Positions 52,196 to 63,899 of a stretch of DNA of 64,000 bases are shown here, one piece after another. The notes beneath the pieces are model-generated. The model saw only the letters and a list, made by a program, of their open reading frames with translations. It made no database searches and was not told where the DNA came from. Each line of letters opens with the position of its first letter. The first letter of the stretch is position 1. A program made the translations under genes and the position numbers. The stretch covers positions 1,862,501-1,926,500 of the forward strand of contig NC_089447.1 in the NCBI RefSeq assembly GCF_026210795.1. Reading direction: 5' to 3'. This DNA is from Rhizophagus irregularis. Taxonomy: Eukaryota; Glomeromycota; Glomeromycetes; Glomerales; Glomeraceae.

Positions 52196-53462
52196 GCATG
52201 TATCCCCCAATTCCCCTCCCCCGTCATCAATTTACAAGGTTGCGGCGCCACATCGAACGGGCATTGGTCGAACGAACGAATGAGCGAACAAACAAACGAA
52301 CGAACGAACAATTAAACGAGCGAGCAATTAATTAACAACATGATTAACAACGACATACAACAACATATACAACATATAACAACAACATTCTTGTTCACAA
52401 AATAAATAGCGTTAGTAATATAAAACATTAAACGATATAAAATAAAATGTACTTCTTTTCCTCAAATTATATCCACTTTTACCTTTAATTTCAAACTTCA
52501 ATAGCTCTCGCTACGAATTATCACTTTTCAAAACATATATTTAAATCTTCTTAAAATTTCATTGATTAAAAATTAATTAATCCAACATTAATTAAAGTTT
52601 GGGGCGAACCTATTACCTTTAATTAATATTAAACTTCATTAACGAATAATTAAATGAAACTTATATTTTATTGAGTTCTGTGGATGCGAACTGTGGAATT
52701 ACTTTGAATTCCGTTCTCTATATATACAATTTTTACGCTACTTTCTATTCTATCTATATACTATCTTTTATGTTCTTTTACATATTATCTTTCAACTATC
52801 TTTCTAATATACTATCTATATTTTAAATACGCTATCTTTTAATATGCTATCTTATATATTATGCTATCTTATATATTATTTTATATATTATCTTTTCTAT
52901 TATTCAAATATTACATTGTAAAGAAATAATTTATAACCCATCTTTTATAAGCTGCGTTATCTTTTCTTTAAAATAATCTTTCAAATATTATGTCGTAAAG
53001 ATATAATTCATCTTTTGTGGCTGTGTTATCTTTTATATATGTTCTTTTTAATATGTTATCTTTTATATTCCATCTTTATGCCATCTTTTCATATCATCTT
53101 CTATATTATTTTGTGTTCTCCAATCTTTCCGACATTATTTTATATATTCTTTTAATCCACTTTATGTGTTTCGCTCATAATCTACCTTTTGCGCTTATAA
53201 TTATTCTTTCTCGTCGTTCTCATTGTTAAAGATCGCTAAGCCGCAAATGATCGACTCTATTTATCCTATTGGTTCTTTGTCAATCATTCAATAAATATTA
53301 CATCATGTAGATCATTACTCTTCTTAAATGTTTATCCTTTTCGGCTAATTATTTATCCATCCACGCCAATCCACGATTAATTCGTTCGTTCTTAATACTT
53401 GATAATTACATTTGGTGGTTGAATTTTATCTTCTTTTCGTACTTGATATTTGGCCGTTTACA
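52196..53462 (-). repeat. 3' LTR (left copy)
   Basis: Near-identical to 62637-63899. On the minus strand it starts TGTAAACGGCC. Contains a GAAC/GTTC tetranucleotide run (about 52260-52320), a TATA-like TATATATAGAG (about 52717-52727, minus strand) and AATAAAA (about 52667-52673, minus strand) about 50 bases further on, which could serve as poly(A) signal. Confidence 0.95.
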
Positions 53463-53537: not shown

Positions 53538-54761
53538 CTAATTGAATCGAACTCGGGTCTTATCGAATACCTCTTTTCCTTTGATTACTATTTTTGGTGT
53601 AAATTCCCTTCGATCATAAAATTTCTTTAACCATTCTCCATTTTGTGGTGTTTTCAATATTCTTCCGTCTAATTCTTTGAATTTATATGCTCCGTTTCCA
53701 AATTCTTCGTGAATTAAATATGGTCCTTTCCATTTGCTCTGTAATTTTCCAGACCGTTGTTTCTCTCTCCATGCTTCATATAATAATACTTTTTCTCCTA
53801 TTTCAAATTTAGGTTTTCTAATTCCCCTCTTGTCGTGTTGTTGTTGTTTGCTTTCGAGCCTTCTTCCACATTTTCTTTTATTTTACTTCTTATTACCGGT
53901 AGCTCTTCAATTAATATTTTTATTCTATCAGTTAATGTTATTTTATTTTCGTCTTTATCTAATGGTAGTTTTGCTCTTCTTCCGTATGTTGCATAAAAAG
54001 GTTTAATTCTTGTTGACGATTCTTGCTTTTTTCATCTATACTGCAAATAACACAGATGGTATATGTTTATCCCAATTTTCTTCTCCTAATTTGGCTAATC
54101 CTTCGCATAAAGTTTTATTGAATCTTTCGACCAAACCATTTGTTTGTGGCCTATATGGCGTACTTAATCTATGGTTTATTCCACACCTTTCTACTAATTC
54201 TTCCATCATTTTATTGTTAAATGGAAACCTCTATCGCTAATTATGTTCTTTGGACATCCATGTCTACAAATTATATCTCTCCAAATAAATTCTACTACCT
54301 CTTTTGCTGTAGCTTCTTTTAGCGTGCTATCGCCATTTGGTAAAATAATCCATTGCCATCACAATATACTTATTTCCCTTTTCTGTCTCTTTTAATGGTC
54401 CAACTATATCTATTCCAATCATCTCGAATGGTTCATTTATCTTTATTGGTGTCAATTCATTCTTTCCTCTTGGTCTTCCTCTCATCTGACAATTCCAACA
54501 TGTTTTTACATATTCTTCTACATCTTCTTTCATATTTTTCCACCAATAATTTTCTTTTATTCTATCTAATGTCGCTTCTATCCCAAAATGTCCTGATAAT
54601 TCATTATCATGCATCATGTACATCAATCCTTCGTATTCATAATCTCTAATTACTCTAAATTTGTTTTGTCCTTTTACTCTATATAGAATCCCCTCTTTCA
54701 ATTCATATTTATTCTCTTTTTCGATATTGTCAATTATTCTTTTGTAATTATTTTCTTCCAT
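53538..54761 (-). pseudogene. Retroelement integrase, frameshifted
   Basis: N-terminal HHCC zinc domain (HDNELSGHFG to CWNCQMRG), then the DDE core: first aspartate in IGIDIVGP, second in ISDRG, glutamate in LVERFNKTL. The C-terminal part has a GPY-like segment (KWKGPYLIHEEFGNG) and ends at TAG 53540-53538. Frame breaks lie near 54335 and 54230, with further breaks before 53990; the start and end are in one frame, so the indels compensate in part. It begins with its own ATG (54761) 60 bases past the stop of the upstream frame, with a second TAA at 54773. It could be a separate reading frame or the end of one polyprotein. It would insert the cDNA into the genome; this copy should be inactive. 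Confidence 0.9.
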
Positions 54762-54821: not shown

Positions 54822-55928
54822 TTAGTTCTGTGCTCTTCTCCATCTCTCCACCTCTTTAAATACTTTTCTCCAGCTACTATTGTCATTTTTAACTTTTACT
54901 CGACTGTATCTTTCAGTATCTTTGTACACGCTCTGATTTTCTTCAAACATTCTAACCATGTCCAAATATTCATCCTTCTTTAATGTTGGATATGATGATT
55001 TTTCCGTTTTCTTTGTTTCTCTTCCGATGTAATTTTTCCAACATACGTCGCTATCTTTTTCTAAAAATATCACTATTGATTTATCTATTGTTTCTTTCAA
55101 TCTGAATATTTCTTTTTCCATCTCATGATTTCCATGCGGAGTAATTAATCCTCTGTCAAAACTTTTCGTCTTTTGATAATAATATTCACAATATGGTGAT
55201 TTGTCTAAAATTATTATATCTGTATCTTCGTCATATTCTAGCATTCTTCTGTTTATTTGTTCCACTACTTCTTTTCTGAATTTCCATTCTGTCTCCATCT
55301 TTGATTCATAAAATTCATCTTTATCTTTTCTTCTTCTCTTATAAGTGTTGAATCTTACTTTTAATCCTTGCTTTTCCCATTCTTCAATTAAATTTTGTAC
55401 TATACTTGTCTTTCCTAATCCATCTACTCCATCGATTATTACTATTTCTGGTTGATCCTCTACTATCTTTAATAACCTACTTAATGCGTCGGCGTTCGTA
55501 TTTTCTTTTCCCGATCTATGTATTACTTCAAAATTATATTGCTGTAATTCCATTACCCATCTTGCTCTTTTTCCTTTTGGTATTTTTGCATTCATTAATC
55601 CTTTTAATGCACTGTGATCTGTTATTACTTTAAATTTTCTATCGATTAAATATTTATGAAAATGTTGAATTCCCCAAACTATTCCTAAACATTCCAATTC
55701 TGTTATCGGATAGTTTTCTTCTGCTGGTAATAAACTTCTACTTGCGTATGCTATTACTACTTCTTTTCCTTTTTCATCTTTTTGACTTAATACTGCACCT
55801 AATCCTTTCCCTGATGCATCTGTTATTAATAAAAATTCTTTCTTCCAATCTGGATGTCGCAGTATTGGATATTGTATTAACTTTTCTTTCAACTTTTCGA
55901 ACGCTTCTTGTTGCTTTCTCTTCCCCAA
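54822..55928 (-). pseudogene. RNase H plus thymidylate-kinase-like P-loop domain
   Basis: An open frame of 368 codons; being part of a broken polyprotein it has no real start of its own (first codon TTG). Residues 1-33 are the RT connection. Residues 34-152 are Ty3-type RNase H: TDASGKGLGAVL, ELECLGIVW, TDHSALKGL and NADALSRL supply the acidic residues. From about residue 160 to the end is a domain not normal at this place. IVIIDGVDGLGKTS is a Walker A P-loop of thymidylate kinase style, followed by a basic KRRRK stretch, IIILDKSPYCEYYYQK (position of the DR-x-x-S-x-x-x-YQ motif), IVIFLEKD and GRETKK (lid-like). The order fits dTMP/deoxynucleoside kinases; the usual DR arginine is lysine here. 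Ends at TAA 54824-54822. Activity is unproven. Confidence 0.88.
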
Positions 55929-57454
55929 ATGAAAGGTATTCCCTTCTTTCTTAAATCACTTATTGGTCTTGCTATCTTTGAAAAATTCTTCACGAATTTT
56001 CTGTAATATGAACAAAGTCCTAAAAATGATCTTACTTCTTTCACCGTTGTTGGTGCCTTCATTTCTTTTATCTTTTCTATCTTTTTATCGTCTGGCCTTA
56101 ATCCATCATTTCCTACTATATGTCCTAAAAATTCTATATTTCTTTCCAAAAATCTACATTTCTTTAATTTTATTATTAAATTATTCTCCTGTAACTTCTT
56201 TAATACTTTTTCCACATGTTCCATATGGTCTTCTAAATTTTCTGAATATATCATAATATCATCGATATATACTACCACAAAATCATTTATGTATTCTTCT
56301 AATATTTCATCCATTAATCTTTGAAATGTTGCTGGTGCATTCGTTAAACCGAACGGCATTACATTATATTCAAACAATCCTTTCGAACATACAAATGCTG
56401 TTTTTTCTTTGTCTTCTTCTTTCATCTCTACTTGATTAAATCCTGCTGCTAAATCTATACTTGAAAACCATTTTGCTTTTCTATATTTATCTAATAATTC
56501 ATCCATTCTTGGTAAAGGAAAACTATCCATTATAGTTATCTTGTTTAACTTTCTGTAATCAATACAGAATCTATATTTTCCCGTTTTCTTTCCTGCTAAT
56601 GTAACCGGTGAACTCCACGGACTTTTTGATTTTCTTATCCTTCCTTGTCTTAATAATTTATCTACTTCTTCGCTTATAAATTTTGCCTTTTCGTCTGTTT
56701 TCTTGTATCTTCTTTGTTTTATCAGTTCTACTCCATCTTTTATTTTTATCTCATGTTGTGCCGCTTTTGTTCTCCCTTCTATTTCTTTGTCATATTCCAA
56801 AATATCTTGGTATTCTAATAATAATTTTACCATATTTTCCCAAATTGGTTCTTCTACTTTCCCTATACTTAATTTTTGCATAAATTTTTCACTTGGTTCG
56901 AGCATCTTTTCCGTCTCTCTCTTCAGAGCCAAGACTCTCTATTTAAAATTCTGGTGCATTTTGAATACCTCTCCCTCATCGTTACTTTCATATTCTTCAT
57001 CGTCCTCACTCTCTTCGCTTTCATATATTGCTTCTCTTTCATATCCTACTGGGATCGTTATTATTTCCCCCTGTTCTTCCATCCTTAAGGTATGATCTTC
57101 GAAATTTATTTTTGCGTTATACAGCTTCCATATATCATTTCCCAAAATTAGATCCTCTTCTTCTGAATCTATTACTTCAACTTCTTTTAGTATCTTTAAT
57201 TCATCTTTGTATCTTAAAGTTATATTTGCTTTTCCTAACGCTGCTATCTTTTACCCATTTGCTATTGTACATCTAAATTTACTTTTTCCAAATATAGGTA
57301 TATTCAATCTTCTTCTTAATTTATCTGTTATCACACTTACTGCTGCTCCGGTATCTATTATTACGCTCACTAATTGATCTTCAACTTCTAATTCTCGTTC
57401 TCATTGCTGTAGTTTTCTTTTCTCTTCATTTTTCATAGTTCCCACCGAGTGTAG
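55889..57454 (-). pseudogene. Aspartic protease and reverse transcriptase
   Basis: In Gag's reading frame. The protease has the DTGA active-site motif (codons at 57355-57344) and GNDIW further on. RT follows: FCIDYRKLNK, then DSFPLPRMDELL, FSSIDLAAGFNQVEM, MPFGLTNAPATFQRLM and the catalytic VVYIDDIMIY, then FLGHIVG and SFLGLCSYYRKFV. In-frame stops: TGA at 57403-57401, TAA at 57253-57251 and TAG at 56941-56939. Near 55923-55926 a G-run appears one base short, moving the frame into the RNase H part. An acidic linker (ESEESEDDEEYES) lies between protease and RT. The element's RT and protease families are clear; this copy cannot make the whole product without suppression or repair. Confidence 0.93.
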
Positions 57455-59398
57455 TCAATTTTTTTCGTTTATACTTCTTGGTCTATATGTTGCTTCTCTT
57501 AATTGTTTATGATACTTAGGATTCCCATTTATTAATTGTCCATATGTTATATTCGCCCTACAATTTTTCACATCCCCTACAATATCATAAGGTGGTATTC
57601 CGTCAGTTAATCTTGGTCCATACTCTCTGGGTTTTGTTGGTCCTCCTGCTTCTCTCCATTTTCTTAGTCCTTCTGTTGGGTCGTAATAAGCTTGTCTTTT
57701 ATTACTCCATCTCATTCCTTTTGGTCCTATTGGTCTACCCCCGTTTTGTTCTGTTCGTTCAGGTATATAATTTGGTGCCGTTGTACCACTTGGTATTTCT
57801 CTATCGTCCATTCTATTTCCTGCTTCCCTTAATTCTTCTTGTAAATTTCCCTCTTCATTATTATTTTTATATCCCACTATTGGACTCGTTCTTCTTGATT
57901 GTCTTCTTCCTTTTACTGCGTCATCTTTTGCGTATAATTCATTATGATAATTTAATTCTCCATCTTCATAATCATCATAATAGCCTTGTGTGTAATATAT
58001 TCCATTATATTGTGGTTCCTCGTATCCATATTCATCATAATAATATTCTTCTTGATCATCATATTCGTCCATCATATTTACTCTCGCATTCCTTCCTTCG
58101 GGACAATTATTCTTGTAATGCCCCATTCTATTACATCCGAAACACGTTGGTACCCTATTCTGGTTTGATTGATAACTATTCCTATTACTATTATTTAATC
58201 TCCTTCCCATATTTGGTTGATACCTATCCCTATTATCGTTGTTTAATCTTCTCTCCATATTTGCTACCATTCTTTCTAATTTACTAATTTTCGCCTTCTC
58301 TTTAAACATTTCAGCTAATTCGTCCTCATAATTTTCGTTCAATGGTTTTGCGAACATATTTTGTCTATTGTCATCTTTTCCGATATCTATTTTCGTACTA
58401 ATTGGCGTTCCTATTGCTTTTCTTAAAAATTCGTCTTTTGCACCTTCTTCTCTTACTGCTATTTCTATCGCCCCATTTAAGTTCGCTGGATTCTGTCTTC
58501 TAACTTGATATCCTATTGTTGGTTCTAATCCTTCGATGTAAAAATCTACTTGATATTCATCTGCTAATGCATGTCTTCTAGTTGCTATTCTTAATATTTG
58601 TCTAAATCTTCTTGTATATTCTTCAACACTTTCACTTGTTTCTTGTCGAGTTTTTCTTAATTCTAGCATTTTCTTTCTTCTAACATCCTCTCTGGTAAAT
58701 CTTCTTTTTATTCTATGCTTTAAATCATTATCATTATCTACATCTGCCCAATTCACTAAGTGACCTGCATTTACTTCTTTCATTTCATTATACCATTGTG
58801 CTGCTGCTCCTCTTAAATGTGCTGCTGCGTATACCGCTTGTCTTACGCCATTAGCTCCCGCTGCTTTTCCGACTGCTGCAAATGCTACCTCGAATTGTCT
58901 AACCCAATCAGTAACATCTTCATCTTCTCTTCCATAAAAGAGTGGTATACTAATTGTTCCTCCTGCTTCATTTCCTGCATTTTCGATCCTATCTATCAAA
59001 CTTCCTCCTGCTCCTACTGCTGCGTTCAAAGTATTAGCCGGATAACCTAAAGCATTCTCTATCAATCTTTTTATTTGGTTCTCAGTTGCCATATTTAATA
59101 TATTCTCTTGAAATAAATCTCGTAAATTGTAATCAGATAATTCACTTTCGTTGTCAGAATTTTTAATATTTAATGAACTATTCGTATCTGAGTTTTGACT
59201 CAAGTCGCTACCTCCTCTATTTATAACATTTTCAATTTCATCTTCAGATTCTTTTTCGTTAAAATTTTCAATATTTTCATCCCATATTTCATCCGGACTT
59301 AGTATTTCTCCAATCTTTTCTGAATCATCTGTATTATCTTCTTCTGATTCTTCATTATCGCTTCTTTCGCCACTTTCTTCACTATCTATTATTCCCGC
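57455..59398 (-). CDS. Gag with CCHC zinc knuckle
   Basis: Continuous frame directly after the ORF-X stop codon and in the same phase. It opens with an acidic, Ser/Glu-rich stretch of about 65 codons with no ATG, then the capsid-like region. Retrotransposon Gag motifs are visible: ISIPLFYGREDEDVTDWVRQ, AAQWYNEM, LKHRIKRRFT and ESVEEYTRRFRQILRIA. A zinc knuckle C-x2-C-x4-H-x4-C (CFGCNRMGHYKNNC) follows at codons near 58144-58103, then a Tyr/Asp/Glu-rich tail. The first ATG in frame is inside the capsid region (MATENQIK), so either translation continues from ORF-X or this stop is a mutation. Ends TGA 57457-57455. Packages element RNA into virus-like particles. Confidence 0.88.
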   Translation of the reverse strand, partial: AGIIDSEESGERSDNEESEEDNTDDSEKIGEILSPDEIWDENIENFNEKESEDEIENVINRGGSDLSQNSDTNSSLNIKNSDNESELSDYNLRDLFQENILNMATENQIKRLIENALGYPANTLNAAVGAGGSLIDRIENAGNEAGGTISIPLFYGREDEDVTDWVRQFEVAFAAVGKAAGANGVRQAVYAAAHLRGAAAQWYNEMKEVNAGHLVNWADVDNDNDLKHRIKRRFTREDVRRKKMLELRKTRQETSESVEEYTRRFRQILRIATRRHALADEYQVDFYIEGLEPTIGYQVRRQNPANLNGAIEIAVREEGAKDEFLRKAIGTPISTKIDIGKDDNRQNMFAKPLNENYEDELAEMFKEKAKISKLERMVANMERRLNNDNRDRYQPNMGRRLNNSNRNSYQSNQNRVPTCFGCNRMGHYKNNCPEGRNARVNMMDEYDDQEEYYYDEYGYEEPQYNGIYYTQGYYDDYEDGELNYHNELYAKDDAVKGRRQSRRTSPIVGYKNNNEEGNLQEELREAGNRMDDREIPSGTTAPNYIPERTEQNGGRPIGPKGMRWSNKRQAYYDPTEGLRKWREAGGPTKPREYGPRLTDGIPPYDIVGDVKNCRANITYGQLINGNPKYHKQLREATYRPRSINEKN

Positions 59399-61048
59399 TT
59401 ATTCTTTCAACAACTTATCTAATTTTTTCTTCAATTCTTTTTCCGACTCATCTTTATTTTCTTGAAAGATTTCTATGAATTCTTTATCTAAAATTTCTCC
59501 ATCTGTATATCCCATACTAGTCAATCTCAACAATTCTTCTTCAGTTATTATTGTTCCAATATCTTCAAAAATCTTCTGTAATCTTTTTACCCGATCATCA
59601 ATTTCATCGATATTTTCTTCTTCACAATCTTTGCATACCATTCCTCTTACTCTAGACATATCATCCATCCATCCTAATCTAAACATATCATTCATCCATC
59701 TTATTTCGCATCTTTCGCACCAAGTTGTATTCTTGTTTAACCACTTATGAATTTCTTTTCTTAATTCTTTATCTTCCAAATCTATCATTTCCATATATTC
59801 TTCCACAAATTCTTTAGTTACTATTATTCGATTATTTACCCCAAAACTCTTCATTCTTTGAATTTCTGACACATCTATTTCATATCCCAATTTTTCTAAG
59901 TTGTTTCTTAATTCTATTAGCTCATCTTGTTCATTCTTCTGCGCTTCTTTAACACATTCCCCGCATTCGCTATCCGCTTCGTCCATTTCGAACCTTCTAT
60001 TACCACATTTTTCACATCTTATTGTTTCTTTTTCTAACCATTCTTTTATCCTCAATTCTTTTTCCCTTTCATCCAATTCCTCTATCTCTTGAATTTTATC
60101 CATAAATATTCTCGTTACCAATATATCCATTTCTATCATCAACTTTATTCCTATTTTCCAAATGTCCCTCAGTTGATCTTCATCCATAACATTTGACCTT
60201 CTTCTTAATTCACTAAATTTCCATGATTTATCTCCTATTATTATCTCTAATTCTTCCTCGGAATCATTTTCCAATTCGTAACTTGCTGGACTATCTTCAC
60301 TTTCTGAATCTTCTGGTTCTTTTGTAAATCCCCTAGTATCTATAAATATTCTTATTATCTTTTGCATCATATTCTTGTGATATTCGTGAACATTTTCTAT
60401 ATGTATGTTCTCATATTCTATTTTGGACATTAGTTCCTTTACTTTCTCCTCATTCATAGCTATTCCTTCTTCTTCATATAGTAACTCCCTAAACGTCTCT
60501 ATTGCTCCTGTCTTTACTCGTAATGGTCCAATTTCTTTTGATGTGATTCTATACCATTGCCAAAATTTCTCAAACCTTCTTTCAACATCCCAATCTTCCA
60601 AAATATATTTGTGTTCTATTAATTCAGGATTTCCAATTAATCTATCAAATACTTCATTCCCCAGATTTCTTTCAATACAGTCTCTTACAATTACTAATAT
60701 AATTGTTCGTAATCCCCTTTCTTTCATTTTTGGTTGTATTCTATATCTTATTGATTCCGTTATTCTATCCATTATGTCTCTACATTTCCCTTTATGTATT
60801 GTATCTTCCCTTTCTGAATTATTCATACTTAATAAATCTAATACTCCCTTAATCGTTACGTCATTGTATATTATTATTGCATCTTCAAATTTAAATAACG
60901 CGTCCCAAAATTTCTTGAATACTATTGGTTCATTTACTATTGGATAACATAATTCACAATTTAAACATTCATCCAATTCTTCCGTTCCTAATTCGTGTTC
61001 CTCTTTATGTGTTCTATATTCGCTTTCCCATTGATGGTACCATTCCAT
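59399..61048 (-). CDS. ORF-X: novel 549-residue zinc-module protein upstream of Gag
   Basis: Starts at ATG 61048 and ends at TAA 59401-59399, with no internal break. I do not recognise the family. Visible parts: a CxxCxxC cluster (C28, C31, C34); a central region rich in Glu/Lys/Ile; an acidic segment (about 243-266, EDSESEDSPASYELEND). Two related modules follow, about 325-422 and 423-530. Each has a helix (KELRIKEWLEK / KELRKEIHKWLNK), a CxxC pair, a second CxxC (C345/C348 with C362/C365; C444/C447 with C472/C475), then a helix and the signature I-x-x-x-E-I/L-x-R-x-x-S-x-G followed by KEF. The ORF stops just after the first helix of what would be a third module (EKELKKKLDKLLKE). It is in the same frame as Gag. 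Nucleic-acid or protein binding through zinc modules is a guess. Confidence 0.8.
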   Translation of the reverse strand: MEWYHQWESEYRTHKEEHELGTEELDECLNCELCYPIVNEPIVFKKFWDALFKFEDAIIIYNDVTIKGVLDLLSMNNSEREDTIHKGKCRDIMDRITESIRYRIQPKMKERGLRTIILVIVRDCIERNLGNEVFDRLIGNPELIEHKYILEDWDVERRFEKFWQWYRITSKEIGPLRVKTGAIETFRELLYEEEGIAMNEEKVKELMSKIEYENIHIENVHEYHKNMMQKIIRIFIDTRGFTKEPEDSESEDSPASYELENDSEEELEIIIGDKSWKFSELRRRSNVMDEDQLRDIWKIGIKLMIEMDILVTRIFMDKIQEIEELDEREKELRIKEWLEKETIRCEKCGNRRFEMDEADSECGECVKEAQKNEQDELIELRNNLEKLGYEIDVSEIQRMKSFGVNNRIIVTKEFVEEYMEMIDLEDKELRKEIHKWLNKNTTWCERCEIRWMNDMFRLGWMDDMSRVRGMVCKDCEEENIDEIDDRVKRLQKIFEDIGTIITEEELLRLTSMGYTDGEILDKEFIEIFQENKDESEKELKKKLDKLLKE

Positions 61049-62636: not shown

Positions 62637-63899
62637 TGAGATCCCCCAATTCCCCCTGTCATCAATTTACAAGGTTGCCACATCGAACGGGCATTCTCAT
62701 GGTCGAACGAACGAATGAGCGAACAAACAAACGAACGAACGAACAATTAAACGAGCGAGCAATTAATTAACAAACACGATTAACAACGACATACAACAAC
62801 ATATACAACATATAACAACAACATTCTTGGTTCACAAAATAAATAGCGTTAGTAATATAAAACATTAAACGATATAAAATAAAATGTACTTCTCTTTCCT
62901 CAAATTATATCCACTTTTACCTTTAATTTCAAACTTCAATAGCTCTCGCTACGAATTATCACTTTTCAAAACATATATTTAAATCTTCTTAAAATTTCAT
63001 TGATTAAAAATTAATTAATCCAACATTAATTAAAGTTTAGGGCGAACCTATTACCTTTAATTAATATTAAACTTCATTAACGAATAATTAAATGAAACTT
63101 ATATTTTATTGAGTTCTGTGGATGCGAACTGTGGAATTACTTTGAATTCCGTTCTCTATATATACAATTTTTATGCTACTTTCTATTCTATCTATATACT
63201 ATCTTTTATGTTCTTTACATATTATCTTTGAACTATCTTTCTAATATACTATCTATATTTTAAATACGCTATCTTTTAATATGCTATCTTATATATTATG
63301 CTATCTTATATATTATTTTATATATTATCTTTTCTATTATTCAAATATTACATCGTAAAGAAATAATTTATAACCCATCTTTTATGGCTGTGCTATCTTT
63401 TCTTTAAAATAATCTTTCAAATATTATGTCGTAAAGATATAATTCATCTTTTGTGGCTGTGTTATCTTTTATATATGTTCTTTTTAATATGTTATCTTTT
63501 ATATTCCATCTTTATGCCATCTTTTCATATCATCTTCTATATTATTTTGTGTTCTCCAATCTTTCTGACATTATTTTATATATTCTTTTAATCCACTTTA
63601 TGTGTTTCGCTCATAATCTACCTTTTGTGGCTTATAATTATTCTTTCTTGTCGTTCTCATTGTTAAAGATCGCTAAGCCGCAAATGATCGACTCTATTTA
63701 TCCTATTGGTTCTTTGTCAATCATTCAATAAATATTACATCATGTAGATCATTACTCTTCTTAAATGTTTATCCTTTTCGGCTAATTATTTATCCATCCA
63801 CGCCAATCCACGATTAATTCGTTCGTTCTTAATACTTGATAATTACATTTGGTGGTTGAATTTTATCTTCTTTTCGTACTTGATATTTGGCCGTTTACA
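62637..63899 (-). repeat. 5' LTR (right copy), with promoter
   Basis: Differs from the left LTR by about ten substitutions and eight short indels counted by eye. On the minus strand TGTAAACGGCC begins it at 63899. A TATATATAGAGAACGG element (about 63151-63166) is the best TATA candidate for element transcription. Outer flank ACGTT at 63900-63904. Confidence 0.95.

Follow-up and report, generated by a model that had tools for sequence, protein, structure and literature searches.

Rhizophagus irregularis carries, within the 64,000-nucleotide stretch analysed here (the window), a Ty3/gypsy element in which the RNase H is followed by some 200 codons with a P-loop. The initial annotation read these codons as a thymidylate-kinase-like domain captured by the element, perhaps to raise the dNTP supply for reverse transcription. 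What is this domain, does it belong to the element rather than to this single copy, and what might it do there?

The element and its P-loop domain

The window element is an LTR-bounded Ty3/gypsy retrotransposon on the minus strand, with the gene order Gag, RT, RNase H, integrase. The two LTRs, at a repeat spacing of ~10437, are identical at 1238 of 1250 aligned bases (alignment of 52202-53462 against 62641-63899). Their outer flanks carry AACGT or ACGT on each side, the copy on the 3' side sitting a few bases past the aligned LTR end. The parts of the element are:

62641..63899, (-): 5' LTR, starting with TGTAAAC (LTR alignment)
59399..61048, (-): ORF upstream of gag, 549 aa with CxxC pairs (no Pfam family over its cut-off)
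57455..59203, (-): Gag (Pfam Retrotrans_gag 2.4e-13, Ty3_capsid 3.9e-10, a weak CCHC zinc knuckle 0.0067)
56939..57400, (-): protease region with DTGAA, read from the sequence; a stop breaks the frame in the window copy
55889..56932, (-): RT ORF (Pfam RVT_1 2.2e-45)
55452..55928, (-): RNase H, part of the ORF 54822-55928 (Pfam RT_RNaseH 9.2e-38)
54825..55451, (-): kinase-like domain (dNK/TMPK superfamily), 209 aa, up to the stop codon (phrog_761 6.4e-14; PF02223 sub-threshold)
54327..54761, (-): N-terminal part of the integrase with HHCC (Integrase_H2C2, Pfam 3.8e-22), in an ORF apart from the kinase ORF
53538..54326, (-): rest of the integrase, in several frames in the window copy (ORF list)
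52202..53462, (-): 3' LTR (LTR alignment)

We take DTGAA to be the aspartic protease motif; one homologue, P0001, has precomputed matches to the protease families PF13650/PF13975. By eye, the starting part of the gag ORFs (about 800-810 aa) of two other elements, L040 and L041, resembles the window ORF at 59399-61048.

The pol of the window copy is broken: RT and RNase H lie in different frames, the protease frame contains a stop and the integrase is split. Another copy in the same genome (L006) has an unbroken 693-aa RT-RNaseH-kinase ORF, followed by a separate 408-aa integrase ORF. The codons described at the outset as running on from RNase H (NADALSRL) in the same open frame number 209 when read from the ORF, and the P-loop GVDGLGKT, the DKSPYCEYYYQ motif and the GRETKK reported for them are all present. 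The integrase, which had been thought to continue in that frame, does not: a stop lies directly after the kinase and the integrase is a separate ORF, as in L006.

Copies, constraint and exchange among elements

A kinase search of the genome (146.7 Mb, 32 contigs) returned 172 candidates, 150 of which were scored. The genome holds at least 151 kinase matches, and the 150 listed merge to at least 145 places on 30 of the 32 contigs, fragments included. Measured against the window copy, identity declines stepwise, from about 93-100% (type A) through 82-87% (type B and L037) and 75% (two places) to 59-67% (type C) and 53-57% (type D), with partial matches besides. At least one stop occurs in 43 of the 150 listed matches; in the two B copies that were checked it is the second-last aligned residue, that is, the natural end of the ORF.

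The order RT, RNase H, kinase, integrase was found in all 11 elements compared (L036-L046), so the placement of the domain between RNase H and integrase, first proposed for the window copy, applies both there and in these 11. The reading frames differ by type. RT-RNase H carries the kinase at its C-terminus in types A and C (L006, L040), and in type D (L041, 593 aa; P0027 and P0031) the kinase is N-terminal to integrase. Among the records from metagenomes, R. clarus, R. irregularis and G. cerebriforme, a number give the kinase as a protein of about 210-265 aa, and part of these records may be fragments or pieces of gene models. That the domain can be fused to either neighbour suggests that binding to one partner is unnecessary. 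Two A-like proteins have 11-12 residues between NADALSR and the P-loop strand, and seven other proteins have 81-87 (n=9); type C therefore has an extension of about 70 residues.

Other Ty3 elements of the genome appear to do without the domain. When 150 RNase H matches were scored, 87 had a listed kinase match at most 1.5 kb downstream and 63 had none, a pairing that would miss a kinase absent from the list. The 61 best-scoring RNase H matches are all among these 63 and look like other Ty3 families, and tblastn found no kinase between RNase H and integrase in any of five kinase-free elements (L047-L051). In one kinase-free family (L047, 365-1345) RNase H and integrase are separated by a long Cys-rich, zinc-finger-like stretch, which matches no Pfam family at E<=0.01. 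On contig C13, an RNase H at 673482 has no kinase within 1.5 kb, and a D-type kinase lies 16 kb on, at 657524 on the same strand, perhaps as a result of nested insertion.

To gauge constraint, we used the 30 A copies that match the window copy best, a favourable sample. Over the stretch tested, the frame is open in 30/30 copies for the kinase and for RNase H, in 25/30 for RT and in 15/30 for integrase. Pooled pN/pS, a count made without a codon model, is 0.066 for the kinase (300 pairs, 25 distinct sequences), beside 0.039 for RT, 0.027 for RNase H (after removal of 44 of 276 pairs that were out of register) and 0.071 for integrase. By this measure the kinase is under purifying selection and constrained like the core enzymes, which bears out the constraint across copies that the initial annotation had proposed to look for. 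A chance insertion or hitch-hiking pseudogene peculiar to one copy would fit the broken pol of the window copy and the stops in 43 of the 150 listed matches. We nevertheless regard its probability as negligible: the segment recurs, whole or in part, at no fewer than 145 places, in subfamilies down to 53-57% identity, its pN/pS is low and it has homologues in other species, and a chance insertion in one copy is thereby ruled out.

In an unrooted tree of RNase H and integrase, one branch (100/99) splits 10 kinase-bearing elements from five kinase-free ones, three of which have long branches. This topology is consistent with a single capture of the kinase without proving it. Copy number, constraint and this one branch together give good support to the capture of a nucleotide kinase by the element that was proposed initially.

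The kinase and its surroundings do not always share a history. In RT (81-85%), RNase H (72-91%) and integrase (82-85%) the B elements (L039, L042) are close to the C elements (L038, L040), but the B kinase is 87-88% identical to that of A and 64-66% to that of C. The RT-RNase H tree groups B with C and an A+B clade is rejected (p-AU 8e-75); the kinase tree groups B with A and B+C is rejected (p-AU 7e-63), the groups for both tests having been picked after the identities were known. Support in the kinase tree is 89/85 for the A+B fork and 99/97 for the larger fork that also takes in L037 and P0013. In L042 the A-like stretch, at about 3905-3330, is the catalytic part of the kinase, and RNase H, extension and integrase are C-like; an earlier two-way identity profile of L042 agrees with the A-like kinase stretch. 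B elements thus combine a C-lineage backbone with an A-lineage kinase, from which it follows that the kinase moves as a cassette. Between L039 and L042, 7-9% of synonymous sites differ in RT, RNase H and integrase and about 1% in the kinase, hinting that the B kinase was recently homogenised.

Family and origin of the kinase

Which P-loop family the domain belongs to was addressed with an alignment of 35 sequences, the window copy and 34 homologues. The PHROG profile phrog_761, named 'thymidylate kinase', covers residues 3-204 of the 209 in the window copy (E 6.4e-14), so that a match to P-loop kinases does exist, and it takes 34 of the 35 sequences at E<=0.1 (best 4.3e-17). Because phrog_761 also takes both TMPK and dNK proteins, namely E. 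coli Tmk (7e-38), the dNK of Bacillus phage SP-15 (2e-36) and a dNK-like gene of the same genome, L035 (2.5e-17), it stands for the joint dNK/TMPK superfamily. NCBIfam TIGR00041 (DTMP_kinase) likewise matches 34/35 at E<=0.1 (best 4.9e-8), in a scan where adenylate and guanylate kinase models match 33/35 each and ftsY 32/35 (best 4e-8). Pfam PF02223 (Thymidylate_kin) matches 30/35 at E<=0.01 (best 7.4e-8), beside AAA_14 with 32/35. For the window copy PF02223 scores 19.2 and 22.1 bits, below the curated cut-off of 27. Six of ten homologues scanned pass that cut-off with 27.1-32.5 bits, nine of the ten having been chosen for a precomputed PF02223 match, and in P0066 the match runs over positions 1-180 of 185. 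PF01712 (dNK) matches 8/35 at E<=0.01 (best 1.6e-4), the window copy being outside those eight; in P0061, where it spans 1-201 of 203, and in P0094 it reaches 20.8-21 bits and misses its cut-off of 27. In profile-profile comparison eight TMPKs align over 34 columns and two dNKs over 133, both at a probability of 94, and these sets are too small to choose between the families.

The first call of Thymidylate_kin has more support in the family than in the window copy: six of the ten homologues pass PF02223 and the NCBIfam and PHROG names agree with it, but the copy in which the call was made stays sub-threshold. A Pfam search for Thymidylate_kin and dNK had also been suggested, and it yields PF02223 in homologues, with PF01712 staying below its cut-off in P0061 and P0094. 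Taken together, these matches assign the element kinase to the dNK/TMPK superfamily as a divergent member; family profiles lend some support to the TMPK side.

The domain might instead be another class of P-loop NTPase, KTI12-, STAND/AAA- or SRP-like, and no nucleoside or nucleotide kinase. Models of these classes take almost as many of the 35 sequences. KTI12 is over its own cut-off in several of the ten homologues and in P0081 scores higher than Thymidylate_kin, and PDB sequence searches, whose matches are confined to the P-loop region, have FtsY as the best profile match. Most matches of these other classes, however, span the P-loop part only, and the near full-length ones are those of phrog_761, of Thymidylate_kin in P0066 and, at a sub-threshold 21 bits, of dNK in P0061. 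We think such an assignment very improbable.

The conserved residues show how far the domain has diverged. R59, D83, K84 and R144 are invariant over the 35 aligned sequences and the P-loop Lys nearly so. With thymidylate kinases (PF02223, TIGR00041, phrog_761) the element kinase shares the P-loop GxxGxGK[ST] and the D-[RK]-x-x-x-[SC]-x-x-x-Y-Q motif, DKSPYCEYYYQ aligning with DR[YH]xxSxxAYQ of TMPKs, but it is only 10-15% identical to six TMPKs and lacks the TREPGGT-type segment after strand 2. In place of the latter stands NTFKRRR, in which K38, R39 and R41 are invariant over the 35 sequences and R40 is nearly so, and Lys replaces the Arg of the DR motif in 35/35. The invariant R59 lies close to the position of E. 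coli Tmk Arg-78, yet is not aligned with it. With TREPGGT replaced, DR changed to DK, the window copy below the Thymidylate_kin cut-off and dNK-type proteins aligning equally well, dTMP is a candidate substrate only. With dNKs (PF01712) the element kinase has in common a DxSP/DxTP-x-x-x-Y-[FY] motif and, against two dNKs, the alignment over 133 profile columns mentioned above; L035 and the dNK of phage SP-15 are examples of this family. It differs from them in its TMPK-like GVDGxGK P-loop and in Asn-35, invariant in 35/35, at the aligned position of the Glu after strand 2, which we take to be a catalytic residue in dNKs, just as we assume the known roles for the other acceptor-site motifs. L035 is 22% identical to it across 192 aligned residues (E 8e-5 among five subjects). 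Within the kinase superfamily the element kinase forms a branch that is isolated and uncharacterised.

A profile search of a protein database, which scored the 8000 candidates sharing most words, gave 120 matches at E 7e-15 or better and, among the matches listed, none from there to 0.01. As far as their truncated names tell, all homologues with a named organism come from Rhizophagus irregularis, R. clarus, R. diaphanus and Glomus cerebriforme, the rest being metagenome or unnamed proteins. A protein of R. irregularis DAOM 181602=DAOM 197198 is 100% identical across the queried L006 kinase region, and some single proteins of the family already carry the source names 'thymidylate kinase' or 'dTMP kinase'.

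As to the source, recent capture of the host dTMP kinase was considered and rejected, since three exon pieces of that gene (L002, on C13) align with the element kinase at E 0.13 or worse. E. coli Tmk aligns with it pairwise in the P-loop only. The search for a close host donor covered L002 and L035 and found none. A second TMPK-like place, L001 (C24, 3288271-3288729 (+)), matches Thymidylate_kin over the cut-off (47.9 bits) and has internal stops and an unusual P-loop region; it may be a host gene of TMPK type that is split or has degenerated. L035 (3985-4992 (-), C28 near 1224005) is a 335-aa ORF with a clear dNK domain (PF01712 1.2e-31), around which tblastn found no element domains; dNKs are unusual in fungi. 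Searching 50,697 phage records by tblastn with P0033 and P0047 brought up no phage donor, and scans of viral contigs (with P0033 and A2) and genome contigs (with A2), which start from short exact motifs, confirmed no relative. P0033 itself is a metagenome protein of 393 aa on a 6.2-kb contig, in which a NUDIX domain (24.8 bits, cut-off 21.1) is fused to a kinase with 46% identity. The part that links the two aligns to the extension at the N-terminus of element kinases, and P0033 may represent a donor lineage or another element type.

Possible roles and precedents

The reading we favour, with moderate confidence, is that one Ty3/gypsy clade of Glomeraceae captured a dNK/TMPK kinase, keeps it as a predicted working enzyme and swaps it between lineages, most likely for dNTP supply. 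An ancestor of that clade would have taken up the P-loop kinase between RNase H and integrase, and the element would have retained it as an enzyme, whether fused behind RT-RNase H, fused ahead of integrase or, it appears, in an ORF of its own, while the kinase was passed between element lineages as a cassette. Attached to RT-RNase H or carried along in the same particle, the kinase would most likely act on a deoxynucleotide or a deoxynucleoside close to the reverse transcriptase. The local supply of a dNTP precursor might thereby be raised during reverse transcription in nuclei or spores whose dNTP pools are low. Such a gain in dNTP supply is plausible; the host owns a dTMP kinase and a dNK-like gene, so the need for an element kinase is not obvious.

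The main rival reading is that the kinase fold has been turned to another task, nucleic-acid binding or 5'-phosphorylation, or the assembly of the particle or integration complex. It owes this rank to the conserved basic stretch N-x-x-KRRR, found where TMPKs carry TREPGGT. Fusion of the domain to RNase H or to integrase would suit such a task, as would Lys-84 and Asn-35 in place of the canonical Arg and the dNK Glu. The P-loop, D83 and R144 are nevertheless kept, and the polynucleotide-kinase profile phrog_505 matches only 2/35 sequences (best 0.0016). We judge this change of task unlikely, though it deserves to be taken seriously.

A variant of the dNTP-supply reading would make the kinase an anti-restriction gene that counters a host defence lowering dNTPs (a SAMHD1-like dNTPase or ribonucleotide reductase control). 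The biochemistry would be the same as in our preferred reading, and exchange of a cassette between lineages would fit such a gene, but the data do not separate it from general dNTP supply. We consider it improbable as the specific role.

To our knowledge, dUTPase is the only nucleotide-metabolism enzyme known as common in reverse-transcribing elements. Domains of this enzyme are described from fungal Ty3/gypsy elements, from LTR elements of rotifers and planarians and from retroviruses (PMC2864245, PMC5408684, PMC6431247), and the dUTPase in the Pol of fungal Ty3 elements serves as the precedent. Like the element kinase, the dUTPase acts in nucleotide metabolism and sits within Pol, where its place varies; it is a dUTP pyrophosphatase and not a P-loop kinase as here. 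The main text of all three papers lacks the word 'kinase'. Viral dUTPases are assumed to serve a similar purpose in cells that do not divide, as quoted in the paper on dUTPase-bearing fungal Ty3 elements (PMC2864245). Orchid Gypsy elements with an AlkB-like m6A demethylase, as described in PMC9289625, are likewise a case of Ty3/gypsy capture and retention of an enzyme, but there it is an RNA demethylase in an additional ORF of plant elements.

No report of a nucleotide kinase in a retroelement was found in the literature searched, which covers few subscription papers and no preprints. In the sections of PMC8647823 consulted, the kinases named are expanded signalling genes; in PMC11075540, on R. 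irregularis TEs, the sole mention of 'kinase' is 'protein kinase'; and the main text of PMC3248453, on LTR elements in fungi, is without the word.

We would give roughly even chances to the stronger claim that this is the first nucleoside or nucleotide kinase of a retroelement, shifted in substrate, which makes its clade partly independent of host dNTPs or resistant to a dNTP-lowering defence, with selection driving replacement of the kinase by recombination. If it is true, the kinase would be selected strongly enough that element lineages take over the kinase of another lineage by recombination. The limitation of reverse-transcribing elements by dNTP pools is an old question. With a constrained kinase, matched at 145 or more places in one genome and swapped as a cassette, an element of obligate plant symbionts would allow that limitation to be tested directly.
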